Shown here: positions 20,325 through 26,108 of the stretch, piece by piece
Position numbering within the stretch: position 1 is the first letter of the stretch
How the letters are laid out: each line of letters opens with the position of its first letter
Virus record (IMG/VR): IMGVR_UViG_3300037520_001333
Coordinates: 1-26,608 of that record
Origin: a virus
DNA: 26,608 bases
Reading direction: 5' to 3' (one strand)
Notes under the pieces: model-generated
The model's input: the letters and a program-made list of their open reading frames with translations, nothing else
What the model was told of the DNA's origin: nothing
Databases searched by the model: none
Program-made: the position numbers and the translations under genes

Positions 20325-20407
20325 GTGAGAAGCAAACCATCCTCGTGGTTGCCATCGCCATGCTGGCCGTGATGGTCGGATACGTCATCGCAGGGGCAGT
20401 GCAATGA
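20321..20407 (+). CDS. 28-residue membrane microprotein
   Basis: The ATG overlaps the upstream stop and its TGA overlaps the next ATG, both as ATGA. After MSEKQT, residues 7-26 (ILVVAIAMLAVMVGYVIAGA) form one membrane helix. Double 4-base overlaps in frame with its neighbours argue that it is translated. Function unknown. Confidence 0.6.
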   Translation: MSEKQTILVVAIAMLAVMVGYVIAGAVQ

Positions 20408-20724
20408 CCGGCGCATGGGATGGATACCCTAAGAACCGCAAGCAGAGTGGATGGCACTGGCTGGCCGATGAAAGGGGTCCAGAACCGGATTACTGGATCG
20501 CAGACTTGCAGGGTTGGCGATATGTCGGACTGCCCGAGCGCGCAAAGGTTCGTGCGGCTGGCTACCTTGGTCCCTGCCACAGCCCGAGTGAGGTTGCTGC
20601 AATCAAGACCGAGCGCGACAAGCTAAGGGATGCGCTGGATGGCGTGATGAACTCGCACGGCGAGCAACTTCACGATGCCTTTTCCGTCGCCCGCACTGCA
20701 CTCGGGGAGACAGGCAGTGACTGA
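20404..20724 (+). CDS. Array gene 1: aromatic N-terminal domain plus coil
   Basis: 106 residues. The N-terminal half is a Trp/Tyr-rich segment (SGWHWLADERGPEPDYWIAD, then GWRYVGLPERA). The second half has TERDKLRDALDGV and ends VARTALGETGSD, the array's shared coil and tail. First of eight tandem genes with related coil motifs. It overlaps the next gene by 8 bases. Function unknown. Confidence 0.72.
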   Translation: MTGAWDGYPKNRKQSGWHWLADERGPEPDYWIADLQGWRYVGLPERAKVRAAGYLGPCHSPSEVAAIKTERDKLRDALDGVMNSHGEQLHDAFSVARTALGETGSD

Positions 20725-20926
20725 TATCGTGGAGCGGTTGCGTGTTCATGCGTGGAGAAGCGACGGATGGACTCGGCAGGATGCTGCCGAAGCTGCCGAC
20801 GAGATCGAGCGGCTACGGAACGGCATCCGCCATGCACTGTCCGAGATTGAGGACGGAGGACCAAAGGCGCTGAAGTACGCCGCTCAAGAGCTTCGTATCG
20901 CACTCGGGGAGACAAGCAGTGACTGA
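20717..20926 (+). CDS. Array gene 2: MTDIV-type coiled-coil protein
   Basis: 69 residues from GTG 20717, inside the end of gene 1, with GGGGAG in that gene's ALGE codons as ribosome site. MTDIVERLR, then AADEIERLRNGIRHALSEIE, ending LRIALGETSSD. Small charged helical proteins of this type are common in phages of Proteobacteria, without known role. Confidence 0.72.
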   Translation: MTDIVERLRVHAWRSDGWTRQDAAEAADEIERLRNGIRHALSEIEDGGPKALKYAAQELRIALGETSSD

Positions 20927-21167
20927 TATCGTGGACCGACTGCGGCTGACCAACGCAGACTTTCTCCATGAAGAAGCTGCCGACGAGATAGAGCGGCTGA
21001 GGAATGCACTCCGGGAGATCGCTGAAGGTGGCGTCCAAATACCACTAGACGAGGAAGGAGAAGGGCCGAACTGGCCGATGCACATATACGCAATGAAGTG
21101 GGCCAGCTTTTCCGGAGAGTTGCAGAACATCGCGCGCATCGCGCTCAAGGAATCAGACCGTGACTGA
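20919..21167 (+). CDS. Array gene 3: MTDIV-type coiled-coil protein
   Basis: 82 residues from GTG 20919 (8-base overlap). MTDIVDRLR, then EEAADEIERLRNALREIAEG, a central insert (EEGEGPNWPMHIYAMKWASF) and the tail ARIALKESDRD. Close paralog of gene 2 at both protein and DNA level in its first 15 codons. Confidence 0.73.
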   Translation: MTDIVDRLRLTNADFLHEEAADEIERLRNALREIAEGGVQIPLDEEGEGPNWPMHIYAMKWASFSGELQNIARIALKESDRD

Positions 21168-21714
21168 TATCGTGAAGCGACTGCGATCCTTCGATGTGTT
21201 CAGCGCACCGATGGAAATTAACGGCATCATGGTTAGCCCGGTGGCGCTGATGGCAGCGGACGAGATCGTGCGGCTCAGGGAAGAGAGAGACGCGGCACGC
21301 GCCCAGGCCGCGAACGCCGACGCCCAATGCGAACGCGACGCCGAACGGGCCGAGCGCGCTGAGGCCGAGCGCGACCAACTCAAGACGGCGGCAGGGATAG
21401 ACGAGTGGTGCAAGCAGTTCGAGCGCGCCAACATAACCCTGAATGAGAAGCTGTTCGCCCTGCACGAGAGTCTTGAAAAGACAGAGGCGGAACGCGACCG
21501 ACTGCTGGAGAGCGTCAAGCTTCTGGATGCCCTTTGGCATGAGTATCACGATGCCTGTGCCTCACAGTTGGAAGATAACGAACGCCTAAAGGGCGCGCTC
21601 TTGCAGATCGCCAGCAGTGGAGTGAATGGGGAAAGCCTGAACCTCAGCCGGATCGGACATGCTGGCTGCATCAACGTGGCCAAGGATGCACTCAAGGAGA
21701 ACGAACATGACTGA
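21160..21714 (+). CDS. Array gene 4: long coiled-coil protein
   Basis: 184 residues from GTG 21160. MTDIVKRLR and AADEIVRLREERDAARAQ open a long coil with repeated AEAERDQL/AEAERDRLL units (about residues 45-130), then ERLKGALLQIASS and AKDALKENEHD. It looks like an expanded version of genes 2 and 3, perhaps grown by internal duplication. Probably an elongated oligomer. Function unknown. Confidence 0.75.
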   Translation: MTDIVKRLRSFDVFSAPMEINGIMVSPVALMAADEIVRLREERDAARAQAANADAQCERDAERAERAEAERDQLKTAAGIDEWCKQFERANITLNEKLFALHESLEKTEAERDRLLESVKLLDALWHEYHDACASQLEDNERLKGALLQIASSGVNGESLNLSRIGHAGCINVAKDALKENEHD

Positions 21715-21928
21715 GATGGACACCCTTACTCTGGTGCGATGGAGGTTGGCTGAAGGCCGCACCATTGCAGACGCCGACGTGCATAAGCTGGTGGCTCAGA
21801 TCGACAGAATGACGGATGCGCTGAAGAAGATCGGCGGCATCACCATGAGCATGTGCCTCAACTACAAAGACATGGCCGAGACGCAACGGGATATCGCCCG
21901 TGCCGCACTCAAGGAGAACGATCAATGA
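21707..21928 (+). CDS. Array gene 5: small helical protein
   Basis: 73 residues from ATG 21707 (8-base overlap with gene 4, ribosome site AAGGAG in its LKE codons). MTEMDTLTLVRWRLAEGRTI, then VAQIDRMTDALKKIGG, ending ARAALKENDQ. Central Met/Cys-rich part (TMSMCLNYKDMAE). Same coil and tail scheme as its neighbours. Confidence 0.72.
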   Translation: MTEMDTLTLVRWRLAEGRTIADADVHKLVAQIDRMTDALKKIGGITMSMCLNYKDMAETQRDIARAALKENDQ

Positions 21929-22254
21929 ACGAAGACAACGCGACCAGGGCTGAACTCTTGGAAGTCTTGGCGAAACAGGCCGTCCGTCTTACGCGCGTCG
22001 AAAACGAGCGCGATATGTGGCGCAACGAGAACGTCAAAAAGACAGCCGCGTGTGAGCAGATGGGCAACAGGATATGCACGCTTGAAATCGAGCGCGACCG
22101 AATGAAGGGCGCGCTGCGTGATCTGCACGCCAGCGCAACGCACGCATACAAATACCGACCCACCGACACACCTTCCGGGTTTAAAAACGCAATGCGCGAA
22201 TTGGCCGAAACGATGGAGCGCGCACGCGCCGCTCTCATGGAGAGCGGCGAATGA
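21925..22254 (+). CDS. Array gene 6: coiled-coil protein
   Basis: 109 residues, ATGA overlap with gene 5. Coil motifs AELLEVLAKQAVRLTRVENE and LEIERDRMKGALRDLHAS, a polar segment (YKYRPTDTPSGFKN), and tail ARAALMESGE. Ribosome site AAGGAG is in gene 5's C-terminal codons. Function unknown. Confidence 0.72.
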   Translation: MNEDNATRAELLEVLAKQAVRLTRVENERDMWRNENVKKTAACEQMGNRICTLEIERDRMKGALRDLHASATHAYKYRPTDTPSGFKNAMRELAETMERARAALMESGE

Positions 22255-22547
22255 CCAACATCATCGACCGCTTGCTAGACGAAGCCGAGAAGGCCCAGCG
22301 AAAGGGGCATCTTCTTCTGGCTGAGGTCTGCCGCGATGCGTCGGATCAGCTTGGCCTTGTCATGGAAGAACGTGACCGGCTGAGGAATGCCCTGCTGATC
22401 GCAGACACTGCGTGTCGTTCGTATTGGGGCTGGGAGTATGGCCGACCCGGCGATGTGGACGACGATGATGTTCCTGATAGCAGCCTGCTAGTGAAGTGGC
22501 GGCGAGACTACGAGGCTCGCGCCAAACTCAAGGAGAACGACCAATGA
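22251..22547 (+). CDS. Array gene 7: small coiled-coil protein
   Basis: 98 residues, ATGA overlap. MTNIIDRLLDEAEKAQRK resembles the MTDIV openings of genes 2-4; then MEERDRLRNALLIADT, an acidic stretch (GDVDDDDVPDS) and tail ARAKLKENDQ. Two Cys and several Trp/Tyr. Function unknown. Confidence 0.73.
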   Translation: MTNIIDRLLDEAEKAQRKGHLLLAEVCRDASDQLGLVMEERDRLRNALLIADTACRSYWGWEYGRPGDVDDDDVPDSSLLVKWRRDYEARAKLKENDQ

Positions 22548-22783
22548 CCGACACCAGCAACGAGGCCATTGAGCGCGCTATTCAGAACGCGCTTCATGGC
22601 GAATGGCCCGAGACAACAGCCGCCATACTGCGTGCCCTTCGGGCCGAGCGCGACCGGATGAAGAAGGCCCTGCAAGAGATCGAAGACCCTCCGTCTATGG
22701 TGTTCGATATTGATGACGGGTGTGGCGTGTGCGCCTGGATGAGCAACCGAGCCGAAGATGCACTCAAGGGAGACGACCAATGA
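22544..22783 (+). CDS. Array gene 8: small coiled-coil protein
   Basis: 79 residues, ATGA overlap. RAERDRMKKALQEIED is the array coil; a CGVCAW pair of cysteines (CxxC) follows an acidic segment (VFDIDDG); tail AEDALKGDDQ. Last member of the array; its C-terminal codons carry the ribosome site for the next, unrelated gene. Confidence 0.72.
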   Translation: MTDTSNEAIERAIQNALHGEWPETTAAILRALRAERDRMKKALQEIEDPPSMVFDIDDGCGVCAWMSNRAEDALKGDDQ

Positions 22784-22956
22784 GCGGAATCGTAGACGTT
22801 TTTGCTTACTCCGACCGAGGAAAAATCTTGGTCTCATTGCAGACGGTAGATGTCAGGGATGAGTTGCACGTCGCGCTCTATCCCGAGATGGCCCTGAAAC
22901 TGATCGAAACTCTGAGCAAAGCCCTCCGAGACAACATCACGGACGCAAAGCGATGA
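22780..22956 (+). CDS. Small alpha/beta protein, paralog of next gene
   Basis: 58 residues, ATGA overlap at both ends. VFAYSDRGKILVSLQT, then a helix ALKLIETLSKALRDN. The following gene has the same plan (VFAYIRDGEIIVAMHG; LALQLAEALIRAVRN). Predicted beta-beta-alpha mini-domain; function unknown. Confidence 0.7.
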   Translation: MSGIVDVFAYSDRGKILVSLQTVDVRDELHVALYPEMALKLIETLSKALRDNITDAKR

Positions 22957-23776: not shown

Positions 23777-23949
23777 CTCAAATGCACCCTGACGGAACCA
23801 GGGTGGGCGACAAACGCCATGTGCGTCTATCCCCCACCATACCCGGCTGCGTCAAGGGCTTTCATAGCCACCCACCCTGTGTGGGGCGACCTGTCGGCCA
23901 TAGGGACCGGGCAGGCAACGCGATAGCCAAGGGCATGGCGCACTACAAT

Positions 23950-24171
23950 GAAGCCGGAAGTATGTCCGGTGGAAAGGCGGGTGAAAGTCCCGAACGAAGC
24001 GCGATGGTTGTCTGCATGGCCTCGCGTTGACCGACATTGCCGCAAGGCAGAACTCCGTGCTGATGCCGCCCTCACAGGATGTCCCCGGCTGATAAAGGCA
24101 CGATGCAGATTGACGACGGCTCACCGATAGATGGAACCGGCGGAACAGGTTTCCCCCCGCAAAGGGGGAAC
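23950..24171 (+). ncRNA. Candidate structured RNA
   Basis: Consecutive hairpins: CCGGA-TCCGG (23954-23968), CGGG-TGAAAGT-CCCG (23978-23992), CGCGA-TCGCG closing about 24002-24025, and TGCC-GCAA-GGCA (24047-24058). It ends in TTCCCCC-cgcaaa-GGGGGAA (24151-24170) then TTT. The GGGTGAAAGTCCC hairpin recalls group II intron domain I, cobalamin riboswitches and IscB-associated (HEARO) RNAs, but no domain V, no riboswitch core and no protein partner is visible. Identity is open. Confidence 0.4.
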
Positions 24172-24174
24172 TTT
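24151..24174 (+). terminator. Terminator-like hairpin ending the RNA candidate
   Basis: TTCCCCC (24151-24157) pairs with GGGGGAA (24164-24170), loop CGCAAA, followed by C and TTT. The short U tract makes it a moderate terminator candidate for the upstream transcript. Confidence 0.4.
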
Positions 24175-24180
24175 GTCCTC

Positions 24181-24316
24181 AAGCTACCTCAACCCAGCAG
24201 AACAGGTAGGTACAGGCACACAGTCATAGGCTGGTAGCTTAGGCTACTAGCTATGCCGCAACATATCGCTCCAACGATATGTTGCGTCTCTTAGGTTAGC
24301 TTGTAGCTATATCTAG
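24181..24316. repeat. AT-rich repeat cluster, origin- or operator-like
   Basis: AAGCTACC (24181-24188) is the inverse of GGTAGCTT (24233-24240). GCAACATATCG (24258-24268) and CGATATGTTGC (24275-24285) form a perfect 11-bp inverted repeat with loop CTCCAA. The latter is flanked on both sides by CTTAGG followed shortly by TAGCTAT (24238-24254 and 24290-24310). Base composition is markedly richer in AT than the neighbours. It lies directly before the replication gene. Confidence 0.55.
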
Positions 24317-24392
24317 TGTAGTCTTAGACATCTAAAACACCTTGTGTTGGTGTTCTTCTTTGTGTATCCTGCATGTCCTTCGGGGGAAGAAG

Positions 24393-26108
24393 ATGCAAGC
24401 CATTGAAAAAGAATACATCCTAGCAAGAGCTAAGGATGGACAGACTCGGGTAGCCTGCCCTGCCTGTGGACCGGACAGGAAAACCAAGAATGATCCTACC
24501 CTTTCCATCAAGCAGGATGCGGCGGGCATCCTCTGGAATTGCCACCACTGCGGCGTCAACGGTTCGATGGGAAGAGGTGGCAAGGTGACTGCGGTTGTCC
24601 CGATCAAGACCTACACGACCGGCGATCTGGATTTCGCTGGCCTGGACTACATGGCAGACCGGGGCATCTCCGATGAGACAGCTAAGTCTCTCGGCGTTTG
24701 CTCAGGCAGGAAGTTCTTCAAGAAATCTGCGACCGAGTTGGATGCGGTCGGCTTCCCCTACCGGCATCAAGGTAGGGTGACGGCGATCAAGTGGCGGTCC
24801 ATCTCCACCAAAGAGTTTACCCAGGACGGCAGCGCACAGACCCTGTTCCTGGCTGACAAGATCGAGCCGGGGCAGGATATCGTCATCACCGAAGGTGAGA
24901 TCGACGCCCTGTCCTTCTGGGAGGCAGGCATCCCTGCCCTGTCCATCCCGTCCGGGGCTCTGTCCGAAGGCGCCGCCGACGATACTGCCCGTCTGAAATG
25001 GCTGTCGCATCATGACGAACTAATCAAGGCAGCGCCCAATGTCTTCCTTGCGGTGGACATGGACGGGCCGGGCGAGACCACCGCACAGGAACTGGCTCGC
25101 CGTATCGGTAAGCTGAAGTGCTGGCGCGTCTCCTTCCCTCATGGCAGCAAGGACGCCAACGACGTTCTGCTGAAGGCAGGCAAGGAAGCTCTCGCCAAGT
25201 GCAAGGCTGATGCGGCACGCTGGCCGGTCGAAGGCTTGGCCTCACCGGCTGACTTCATGGACAAGGTGCAGACCCTTTACCGGGATGGCCTGCCCCGAGG
25301 CGCCAGCACTGGCTGGTCCAACGTGGACGAACTGTTCACGCTGAACCCTGGCAATCTCGTCATCGTCACGGGCACGCCCGGCTCAGGCAAATCCCAGATC
25401 ATCGACAACATGCTGGTCAGCGCGATGGCTCGCTATAACTGGCGTGTCGCCTATGCCAGCTTTGAGAATCCGCCCGAGCTTCACCTTGCCAAGCTCATCT
25501 CTCTCCGGGCAGGCAAGCCCTTCGGGGATGGGCCGACGCCCCGGATGAGTGAGGACGAGATGCTTGAAGCCCTTGGCTGGGTGAATGAGCATCTGACCTT
25601 CCTCACCAACGAAGGCGTGATGCCGACCGTCGAAAGCCTTATCGAAAGGTTTGAGGCTGCGGTTCGCCGGGATGGGGTGAAGGCCGTAGTCGTGGACCCC
25701 GTGAACTTCATCAAGCTCAGTCAGAAAAAAGACGGCGGCGTTGATACTGAAAGTGTTAACGAGATGCTGTCTCAGTTTAAGACGTTCGCAGCACGGGCAG
25801 AAGTTACCTTCTTCTTGATCGCCCACCCGGCCAAGCCCATGAATGTTTCGGCTGACTGGGTTCCGACCGGCTACTCCATCTCGGGTTCTGCCCACTACTA
25901 CAATCGTGCGGACTTCGGGCTTACCATCCAGCGCAAGATGGATCAGACCATCTTCCATGTGTGGAAGTGCCGCTTTGCATGGCAGGGGCAGATTGGTGAA
26001 GCCAACCTCTACTACGACAAGGCGACCGGCCTCTTCTCAGAAACCCAGGGCGAGACGCAGGATGACAAGCTTTGGCTGAAGGGTTTCGATGAGGTCTACA
26101 ATTTCTGA
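24393..26108 (+). CDS. Primase-helicase (T7 gp4/Twinkle-like)
   Basis: 571 residues from ATG 24393 with GGGGAAG upstream. Zinc-binding domain with C22/C25 (CPAC) and C50/C53 (CHHC); TOPRIM fold with ITEGEIDAL and VDMDGPGE; then a RecA-type DnaB-like helicase with Walker A GTPGSGKS (327-334), Walker B VVVDP with D435, and a FLIAHPAKP motif. As a single polypeptide it would unwind phage DNA and prime lagging strands. It is the only replication protein in the window; polymerase and ligase must lie outside. A separate transcript is suggested by the long non-coding stretch before it and the terminator after it. Confidence 0.93.
   Translation: MQAIEKEYILARAKDGQTRVACPACGPDRKTKNDPTLSIKQDAAGILWNCHHCGVNGSMGRGGKVTAVVPIKTYTTGDLDFAGLDYMADRGISDETAKSLGVCSGRKFFKKSATELDAVGFPYRHQGRVTAIKWRSISTKEFTQDGSAQTLFLADKIEPGQDIVITEGEIDALSFWEAGIPALSIPSGALSEGAADDTARLKWLSHHDELIKAAPNVFLAVDMDGPGETTAQELARRIGKLKCWRVSFPHGSKDANDVLLKAGKEALAKCKADAARWPVEGLASPADFMDKVQTLYRDGLPRGASTGWSNVDELFTLNPGNLVIVTGTPGSGKSQIIDNMLVSAMARYNWRVAYASFENPPELHLAKLISLRAGKPFGDGPTPRMSEDEMLEALGWVNEHLTFLTNEGVMPTVESLIERFEAAVRRDGVKAVVVDPVNFIKLSQKKDGGVDTESVNEMLSQFKTFAARAEVTFFLIAHPAKPMNVSADWVPTGYSISGSAHYYNRADFGLTIQRKMDQTIFHVWKCRFAWQGQIGEANLYYDKATGLFSETQGETQDDKLWLKGFDEVYNF

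Follow-up and report, generated by a model that had tools for sequence, protein, structure and literature searches.

Why do the small genes of a phage array end in nearly the same codons, and can the repeat formed by these codons serve for the exchange of whole genes? The question was raised by a viral DNA of 26,608 nucleotides (IMG/VR record IMGVR_UViG_3300037520_001333; the whole stretch is referred to as the window), in which eight genes of one family and one non-family gene, all on the + strand, are chained through eight start/stop overlaps (Table 1). In a preliminary description it was suggested that the shared protein tail is kept by translation signals, and that recombination between junctions can insert, remove or shuffle genes. 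The analysis reported here indicates a translationally coupled small-gene array, which probably acts as a modular cassette array recombining at two types of short repeats.

The junction pattern was confirmed. Start codons at 20717, 20919, 21160 and 21707 overlap the preceding stop by 8 nt (RTGACTGA) and those at 21925, 22251, 22544 and 22780 by 4 nt (ATGA), four of each kind among the eight junctions. A Shine-Dalgarno (SD) core (GGAG, AGGA or GAGG) was found 5–16 nt upstream of the start, inside the last codons of the upstream gene, at 8/8 junctions. With random synonymous codons for the same window proteins, a mean of 4.65/8 junctions carried an SD core (P(8) = 0.0004); inside the array genes of the window, 9% of positions had one. 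The wording of the preliminary description had to be relaxed at single junctions: L-K-E or L-G-E, claimed for all eight, is exact at 6/8 (J6 reads L-M-E, CTCATGGAG, and J8 L-K-G-D, CTCAAGGGAGAC), and instead of the claimed AAGGAG or GGGGAG, J3 (CTCAAGGAATCA) has AAGGA. The tail Leu codon is CTC at 8/8 junctions, although the larger window genes use CTC for 21% of their Leu residues. Since CTC is uniform at this position yet unneeded for SD pairing, the junction repeat comprises more than the SD alone. At the next two junctions past the array (starts 22953 and 23138) the cassette is absent.

Table 1. Junctions, genes and internal hubs of the array (positions in the window).
Feature	Position	Strand	Sequence or motif	Remarks
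J1	20701..20724	+	CTCGGGGAG ACAGGCA GTGACTGA	tail codons, SD and start/stop overlap
J2	20903..20926	+	CTCGGGGAG ACAAGCA GTGACTGA	
J3	21144..21167	+	CTCAAGGAATCAGACC GTGACTGA	SD = AAGGA
J4	21691..21714	+	CTCAAGGAGAACGAAC ATGACTGA	
J5	21908..21928	+	CTCAAGGAGAACGATCA ATGA	
J6	22234..22254	+	CTCATGGAGAGCGGCGA ATGA	L-M-E
J7	22527..22547	+	CTCAAGGAGAACGACCA ATGA	
J8	22763..22783	+	CTCAAGGGAGACGACCA ATGA	L-K-G-D
Gene 1	20404..20724	+	MTGAWDGYPKN...ERDKLRDAL...ARTALGETGSD	family C-half, different N-half (ORF, alignment)
Gene 2	20717..20926	+	MTDIVERLR...AADEIERLR...RIALGETSSD	
Gene 3	20919..21167	+	MTDIVDRLR...AADEIERLRNALREI...ARIALKESDRD	
Gene 4	21160..21714	+	MTDIVKRLR...AKDALKENEHD	several ERD repeats
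Gene 5	21707..21928	+	MTEMDTLTLVRW...ARAALKENDQ	
Gene 6	21925..22254	+	MNEDNATRAELL...ERDRMKGAL...ARAALMESGE	
Gene 7	22251..22547	+	MTNIIDRLL...ERDRLRNALL...ARAKLKENDQ	
Gene 8	22544..22783	+	MTDTSNEAIERA...ERDRMKKAL...AEDALKGDDQ	missing from L004
Non-family gene	22780..22956	+		coupled to last cassette junction; missing from L004
Hub, gene 1	20608..20631	+	ERDKL	
Hub, gene 2	20798..20827	+	EIERLR	similarity to L043 stops at hub
Hub, gene 3	20982..21011	+	EIERLRNAL	breakpoint in L004, L010, L011, L172
Hub, gene 4	21259..21303	+	EIVRLREERD	breakpoint in L008, L040
Hub, gene 4	21364..21387	+	ERDQL	breakpoint in L040
Hub, gene 4	21487..21510	+	ERDRL	close to breakpoint in L035, L040
Hub, gene 4	21574..21609	+	NERLKGAL	breakpoint in L008, L036
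Hub, gene 6	22003..22026	+	ERDMW	breakpoint in L036, L040
Hub, gene 6	22087..22110	+	ERDRM	
Hub, gene 7	22365..22388	+	ERDRLRNAL	breakpoint in L004, L040, L042, L043, L044
Hub, gene 8	22643..22666	+	ERDRM	

The array genes belong to a phage family of small, presumably coiled-coil proteins (MTDIVxRLR...AADEIERLR...ARxALxE). The family is widespread among environmental viral contigs and matches no filed family entry; the array draws attention to it as a set of small, combinatorial phage proteins. Being small, predicted helical and variable, these proteins look like accessory early gene products. Searches of the array proteins against Pfam, PHROGs and PDB profiles gave nothing above curated cut-offs and only weak coiled-coil-like matches; PDB matches to huntingtin-interacting protein 1 (E~0.004) were discarded as coiled-coil background. 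Foldseek against viral models returned no fold match. With family members and the consensus as queries, tblastn against named phages yielded one match only (E = 0.3), which does not prove absence, since BLAST masks low-complexity (coiled-coil) queries. Positions 18–24 kb had no blastn match among named phages, a family scan of genome contigs returned two MAG loci only, and no earlier description of such arrays was found in the open-access literature.

Codon choice in the family favours the SD more than the protein requires. Among 121 coupled non-redundant genes, an SD core was present in 91 (75%). The share was 40% after synonymous recoding and 10% in gene bodies; 169 other ATGA pairs located on the same contigs reached 41% (p = 6e-9 for the comparison with these pairs). 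GGAG was observed in 73/121 genes (27 expected), its end mostly 5, 7 or 8 nt from the start. The codon preceding the tail Glu was G-ending in 46/58 (about 27 expected), and the tail Glu itself was GAG in 43/58, versus 56% in gene bodies (p = 0.005). Overlaps of 1 nt also occur in relatives, besides the 8 or 4 nt of the window. Homologs without a downstream gene were expected to lack the conserved tail, and mostly do: it was present in 2/16 genes without an adjacent downstream start and in 60/131 with one, and both exceptions have a short downstream ORF. The proposal that the tail is kept as a translation signal therefore holds for its x-E part, as judged from codon choice and from the unrelated proteins described below, but the SD does not explain the upstream ARxAL part.

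In freshwater phages the exact 17-mer AAGGAGAAAGAGTGATG is repeated up to 7 times per contig. Proteins of 12 clusters, transmembrane peptides (e.g. 30-aa membrane peptides) among them, terminate in the 17-mer or a close variant, and no similarity between clusters was detectable once the tail was trimmed. Since this type of junction ends mutually dissimilar proteins, shared protein function cannot explain the freshwater tail. Different phage groups have different junction sequences. For phage proteins in general, the unrelated carriers of one tail are a warning: conservation of a C-terminal peptide can reflect a translation signal and not a feature of the protein.

Similarity between relatives breaks off preferentially at junctions and at a second hub inside the genes, the coiled-coil motif EIERLR/ERDRL. 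All relatives are metagenome contigs, in which repeats can yield chimeric assembly. In the window clade, 31/41 similarity ends were located in hubs of both types, which cover 26% of the array (p = 6e-11; counts are partly non-independent, as related contigs share history). Counted as distinct places, 23/32 breakpoints were in hubs, 12 at junctions and 11 internal. For freshwater arrays, ends were deduplicated and shift-permuted, replacing a binomial test on 670 breakpoints that had been inflated by repeated counting; 45/162 ends were at junctions, versus 15.5 ± 4.4 under the shift null (maximum 33 in 2000). Whole-gene gain and loss at junctions was found in relatives as predicted. In contig L004, for example, a J7/J8-like hybrid connects the gene 7 tail with the start of the gene at 22953, and the two intervening genes are missing. 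Junctions are not the sole break sites, as the 11/32 internal places demonstrate. Breaks inside genes had been named beforehand as evidence against junction exchange; this evidence was half borne out, yet the breaks lie at the second shared hub and not at random positions. They give half-gene chimeras: C-halves were unrelated in 59 of 80 pairs with N-halves at least 85% identical, and N-halves differed in 23 of 32 pairs with C-halves at least 70% identical.

From these sequence patterns the following mechanism can be proposed. The last 5–7 codons of each gene carry the SD for the next gene, and at the stop/start overlap a terminating ribosome could restart on that gene. Any ORF with the junction end and a start codon after it would join the chain without loss of its expression signal. 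Both the junction (~20–45 nt) and the internal EIERLR/ERDRLRNAL stretch are present in many copies per genome; recombination between junctions would delete, insert or swap whole genes, and recombination between internal hubs would create N-half/C-half chimeras. An Erf-like annealing protein and an exonuclease are encoded on contig L003, which does not differ from the window over 12.3 kb. The phage's own single-strand annealing protein, together with the exonuclease, could recombine both repeat types and is a plausible engine of the shuffling. We infer that the exchange is driven by homology at the junctions. A more far-reaching reading appears evenly poised between right and wrong: the array would be a plug-in system, in which the coding junction is a universal connector fixing the tails of unrelated proteins for non-protein reasons, a second connector lies inside the genes, and annealing recombination builds new, at-once-expressed genes and gene orders.

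Ordinary tandem duplication would instead mean that the genes are paralogs of recent origin whose helical C-terminus is conserved; the SD in the tail would be incidental, and exchange would be plain paralog recombination. Identity is 61% between genes 2 and 3 and 91% over the 45 bp common to J1 and J2, ARxAL is conserved upstream of x-E without an SD reason, and CTC at all tail Leu positions is expected from common descent. However, tail codon choice exceeds the need of the protein, the tail is mostly missing where no adjacent start follows, and the same terminal nucleotides on unrelated proteins (such as 30-aa membrane peptides) in related arrays largely refute this explanation, which is quite unlikely. 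Chimeric contigs produced by the array repeats are very improbable: although some relatives (L008, L040) end within the array, the array of the window is present and identical in three further IMG/VR contigs, which argues against assembly error, and its modules are found again, with unbroken reading frames, in numerous contigs from a large number of samples.

Breaks at gene and domain borders would also be left by random (illegitimate) recombination everywhere, followed by selection for intact genes, SD and an in-register coiled coil, with the junction a result of convergent SD optimisation. Phage mosaicism without border signals has been described as the prevalent view (PMC2327257), and many ordinary pairs of overlapping genes carry SD motifs (PMC6728339), as did 41% here. 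Against this, 17 bases are repeated exactly in the freshwater junction, beyond SD need, the tail Leu codon in the window is uniform beyond codon usage, the deletion in L004 carries a hybrid junction, and the phage encodes the Erf-like protein and exonuclease. We consider random breakage somewhat unlikely, and hub homology would better account for the clustering. With its repeats, its recombinants and a candidate recombinase available together, the array is a directly testable case of the old question whether boundary sequences guide phage mosaicism or selection merely sifts it. An integron-like site-specific system, with a recombinase acting on the junction, would agree with the cassette-like behaviour of the genes and with a transposase-like gene in the same virus (L003:20119-21117). 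It was rejected and can hardly be correct, because no integrase was found among the window and L003 proteins scanned and two hubs of different sequence are in use; in addition, the junction sequence varies between phage groups.

The known ingredients of the array are boundary-sequence modularity of phages and translational coupling. In lambdoid phages, short conserved flanks of modules have been put forward as aids to homologous exchange (Clark et al. 2001 on HK620, as cited in PMC2327257). By that secondary account, the array is similar in having a short conserved sequence repeated between different genes and breakpoints of relatives at the boundary (12/32; 45/162 versus 15.5). It differs from the boundaries described there in genes and sequence; moreover, its boundary is coding, includes the SD and comes together with an internal hub. 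The interlinked genes of lambda ninR are a further lambdoid case of the boundary type. In T4-like phages, promoter-stem-loop (PeSL) cassettes are repeated regulatory elements between genes and are thought to mediate gene shuffling; those are intergenic transcription signals, whereas the array carries a coding translation signal.

Cluster K mycobacteriophages have start-associated sequences, short AGGAG-containing repeats directly before many starts in the non-structural half, suggested by the authors as possible recombination targets (PMC3203893). These are 13-bp repeats (GGGATAGGAGCCC), mostly where the upstream gene is >50 bp away (PMC3203893); the junction repeat has a different sequence, is coding and overlaps gene ends. 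Mosaicism of phage protein fragments (domains) is strongest among proteins for receptor binding, lysis and replication (Smug et al. 2023, PMC10684548). There too, parts are recombined between otherwise unrelated phage proteins, but the array concerns small accessory genes that share a single standard end and a single standard splice motif in their interior. ATGA and TGATG overlaps couple translation by termination-reinitiation (Huber et al. 2019, PMC6728339). The array shares with those pairs the overlapping stop/start codons and an SD within the upstream gene's 3' end; unlike single pairs, it repeats one junction along its length and fixes a C-terminal peptide on related and unrelated proteins. 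SD cores are common in other overlapping pairs of these contigs as well (41%), and in its SD part the array is a pronounced case of a common feature.

The nearest relatives of the terminase of the window (a 26.6-kb IMG/VR virus record) were phages such as DSL-LC04, 023Pt_psg01 and Pelagibacter phage HTVC027P, at 50-58% identity. Positions of genes and of the eight gene-to-gene junctions of the small-gene array (J1-J8) are listed in the table.

Features of the window and of L003, a contig locus sharing part of its sequence
Feature	Position	Strand	Remark
Head and packaging genes (terminase, portal, capsid)		minus	
Block with run of small genes	about 20.0-23.3 kb	plus	
J1-J4 (corrected gene starts)	20717, 20919, 21160, 21707		8-nt overlaps
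J5-J8 (corrected gene starts)	21925, 22251, 22544, 22780		4-nt overlaps
Primase-helicase	24342-26108		3' of small-gene block
Exonuclease	L003:12390-13403		
Erf-like annealing protein	L003:18158-18877		E=8e-22
Transposase-like protein	L003:20119-21117		

According to the preliminary description, every junction encodes L-K-E or L-G-E and places AAGGAG or GGGGAG before the next start. The residues were exact at six of eight junctions, J6 reading L-M-E and J8 L-K-G-D; a Shine-Dalgarno (SD) core (GGAG, AGGA or GAGG) lay at the right distance at all eight, with AAGGAA at J3. Random synonymous recoding of these tails with window codon usage retained a mean of 4.65 of 8 SD cores, and all eight in 0.04% of trials; inside these genes, 9% of positions carried a core. 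The tail Leu codon was CTC at 8/8 junctions, against 21% CTC usage. Since CTC is not needed for SD pairing, the uniformity of the tail DNA exceeds what translation alone demands, a pattern that common descent or exchange would produce.

Array genes have the motifs MTDIVxRLR...AADEIERLR, ERDRLRNAL and ARxALxE in common, and their proteins gave no match in Pfam, PHROGs, PDB or viral fold models. For gene 3 (start 20919), AlphaFold predicted helices at residues 4-10, 14-37 and 54-80 with modest confidence (pLDDT 71). IMG/VR pattern scans for the family returned at least 600 matches; among those listed, at least 158 members in 118 loci were fetched, giving 147 non-redundant proteins. One array protein, L267_815, has repeated HRVDGPA-type motifs N-terminally and a standard RAALKE-type tail.

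An SD core was present in the tail of 91 of 121 family members (75%) whose stop overlaps a start codon, compared with 40% after synonymous recoding, 10% in gene bodies and 41% of 169 other ATGA pairs on the same contigs. The skew thus has two layers, amino acids that permit an SD and codon choice that completes it. The residue preceding the tail Glu was variable (K 26, G 17, L, E, S, A, T and others), its codon ending in G in 46/58 cases (about 27 expected), and the Glu codon was GAG in 43/58, against 56% in gene bodies (p=0.005). An L-x-E tail occurred in 2/16 members lacking an overlapping downstream start versus 60/131 (p=0.009). A short downstream ORF, overlooked by the length filter, is in fact present in each of the two exceptions (L026, L138); these ORFs resemble membrane peptides and have tails of the same type. 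At the sequence level, these comparisons demonstrate codon selection for an SD at the tail. ARxAL, 5' of x-E, plays no part in the SD; it may reflect the protein level or simple inheritance.

Freshwater phages, rather than the window itself, give the best example of a tail shared among unrelated proteins. There, the exact 17-mer AAGGAGAAAGAGTGATG (K-E-K-E-stop plus start) occurred in up to seven copies per contig. Twelve protein clusters, including transmembrane peptides, a Pro-rich peptide and the coiled-coil family, end in it or a near copy and show no detectable similarity outside their final five residues; the search was conditioned on the junction, so it shows that unrelated proteins carry the 17-mer and says nothing on frequency. 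The membrane peptides are not related to the coil family, though some small clusters may be distant kin. In these arrays the tail cannot be accounted for by a common protein function. The earlier proposal that translation signals maintain the tail is supported, for its x-E part, by the presence of the tail on unrelated proteins and by codon choice beyond protein need. In GAGTGATG arrays, gene starts are ambiguous (GTG or ATG). In freshwater arrays L240, L261, L270 and L297, a membrane peptide of ~50 aa (MDEIWFWMAKF and similar) appears repeatedly, with differing neighbours on both sides.

Rearrangements were traced in related metagenome contigs, of which three (L004, L008, L040) share synteny with the window. 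L004, with flanking genes about 90% identical, is missing genes 22544 and 22780, and a junction J7-like on its left and J8-like in its middle joins the gene 22251 tail directly to the start of gene 22953. In L008, behind 93%-identical upstream DNA, a homologue of gene 20919 begins at the start-codon position of gene 20404. L004 also carries a chimera that combines the gene 20919 N-half with the gene 22251 C-half; the change occurs at GAACGTGACCGG (ERDR), where L040 departs from gene 22251 too. Among twelve relatives, 31/41 matching-segment ends fell inside hubs (junctions and the internal coiled-coil motif), which make up 26% of the array, and 35/41 within 6 nt of one. Gene gain and loss with breaks at junctions had been proposed; this holds for the L004 deletion and for 12 of 32 distinct break places, while 11 more, of the 23 in hubs, lie at the motif within genes. 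In freshwater arrays, 45 of 162 deduplicated ends were at junctions, where circular shifts gave 15.5 +/- 4.4 (at most 33 over 2000 shifts). Of 80 protein pairs whose N-halves are at least 85% identical, 59 have C-halves that are unrelated; of 32 pairs related in the C-half, 23 differ in the N-half. Effect sizes are large; breakpoint P-values are optimistic because contigs share history. L008, L040 and L044, all from sample 3300032323, share N-halves (97.5% identical between L008 and L040) and differ in C-halves, suggesting that array variants coexist within one community.

Judged from aligned contigs, the pattern is one of in-frame deletions and chimeras with breaks clustered at two hub types. 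Ribosomes would reinitiate at the junctions, and annealing at hubs could generate the rearrangements. L003 matches the window exactly over 12.3 kb and encodes exonuclease, Erf-like and transposase-like proteins to the right of the primase-helicase, and phage annealing proteins recombine diverged sequences and sequences sharing only short perfect identity (PMC2327257, PMC3945230). As the main rival to annealing at hubs, breaks may have been random, with subsequent selection for working junctions and coils.

The array resembles termination-reinitiation coupling (PMC6728339) together with the exchange of modules at boundary sequences that has been proposed for lambdoid phages (Clark et al. 2001, as cited in PMC2327257). 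Also related in kind are protein-fragment mosaicism (PMC10684548) and the start-associated sequences of cluster K (PMC3203893). Unlike in these systems, the boundary is coding DNA and translation signal at once, setting the C-terminus of unrelated proteins, and a second hub within genes yields half-gene combinations.

About 500 nt at 23790-24300 of the window are without a convincing gene, and are near-identical in L004 whereas flanking coding DNA is ~90% identical. An Rfam search of this segment gave no match; its predicted folding was somewhat better than that of shuffled sequences (z -2.0 for the plus strand and -3.5 for the minus strand), and it is possibly a structured RNA or control region.
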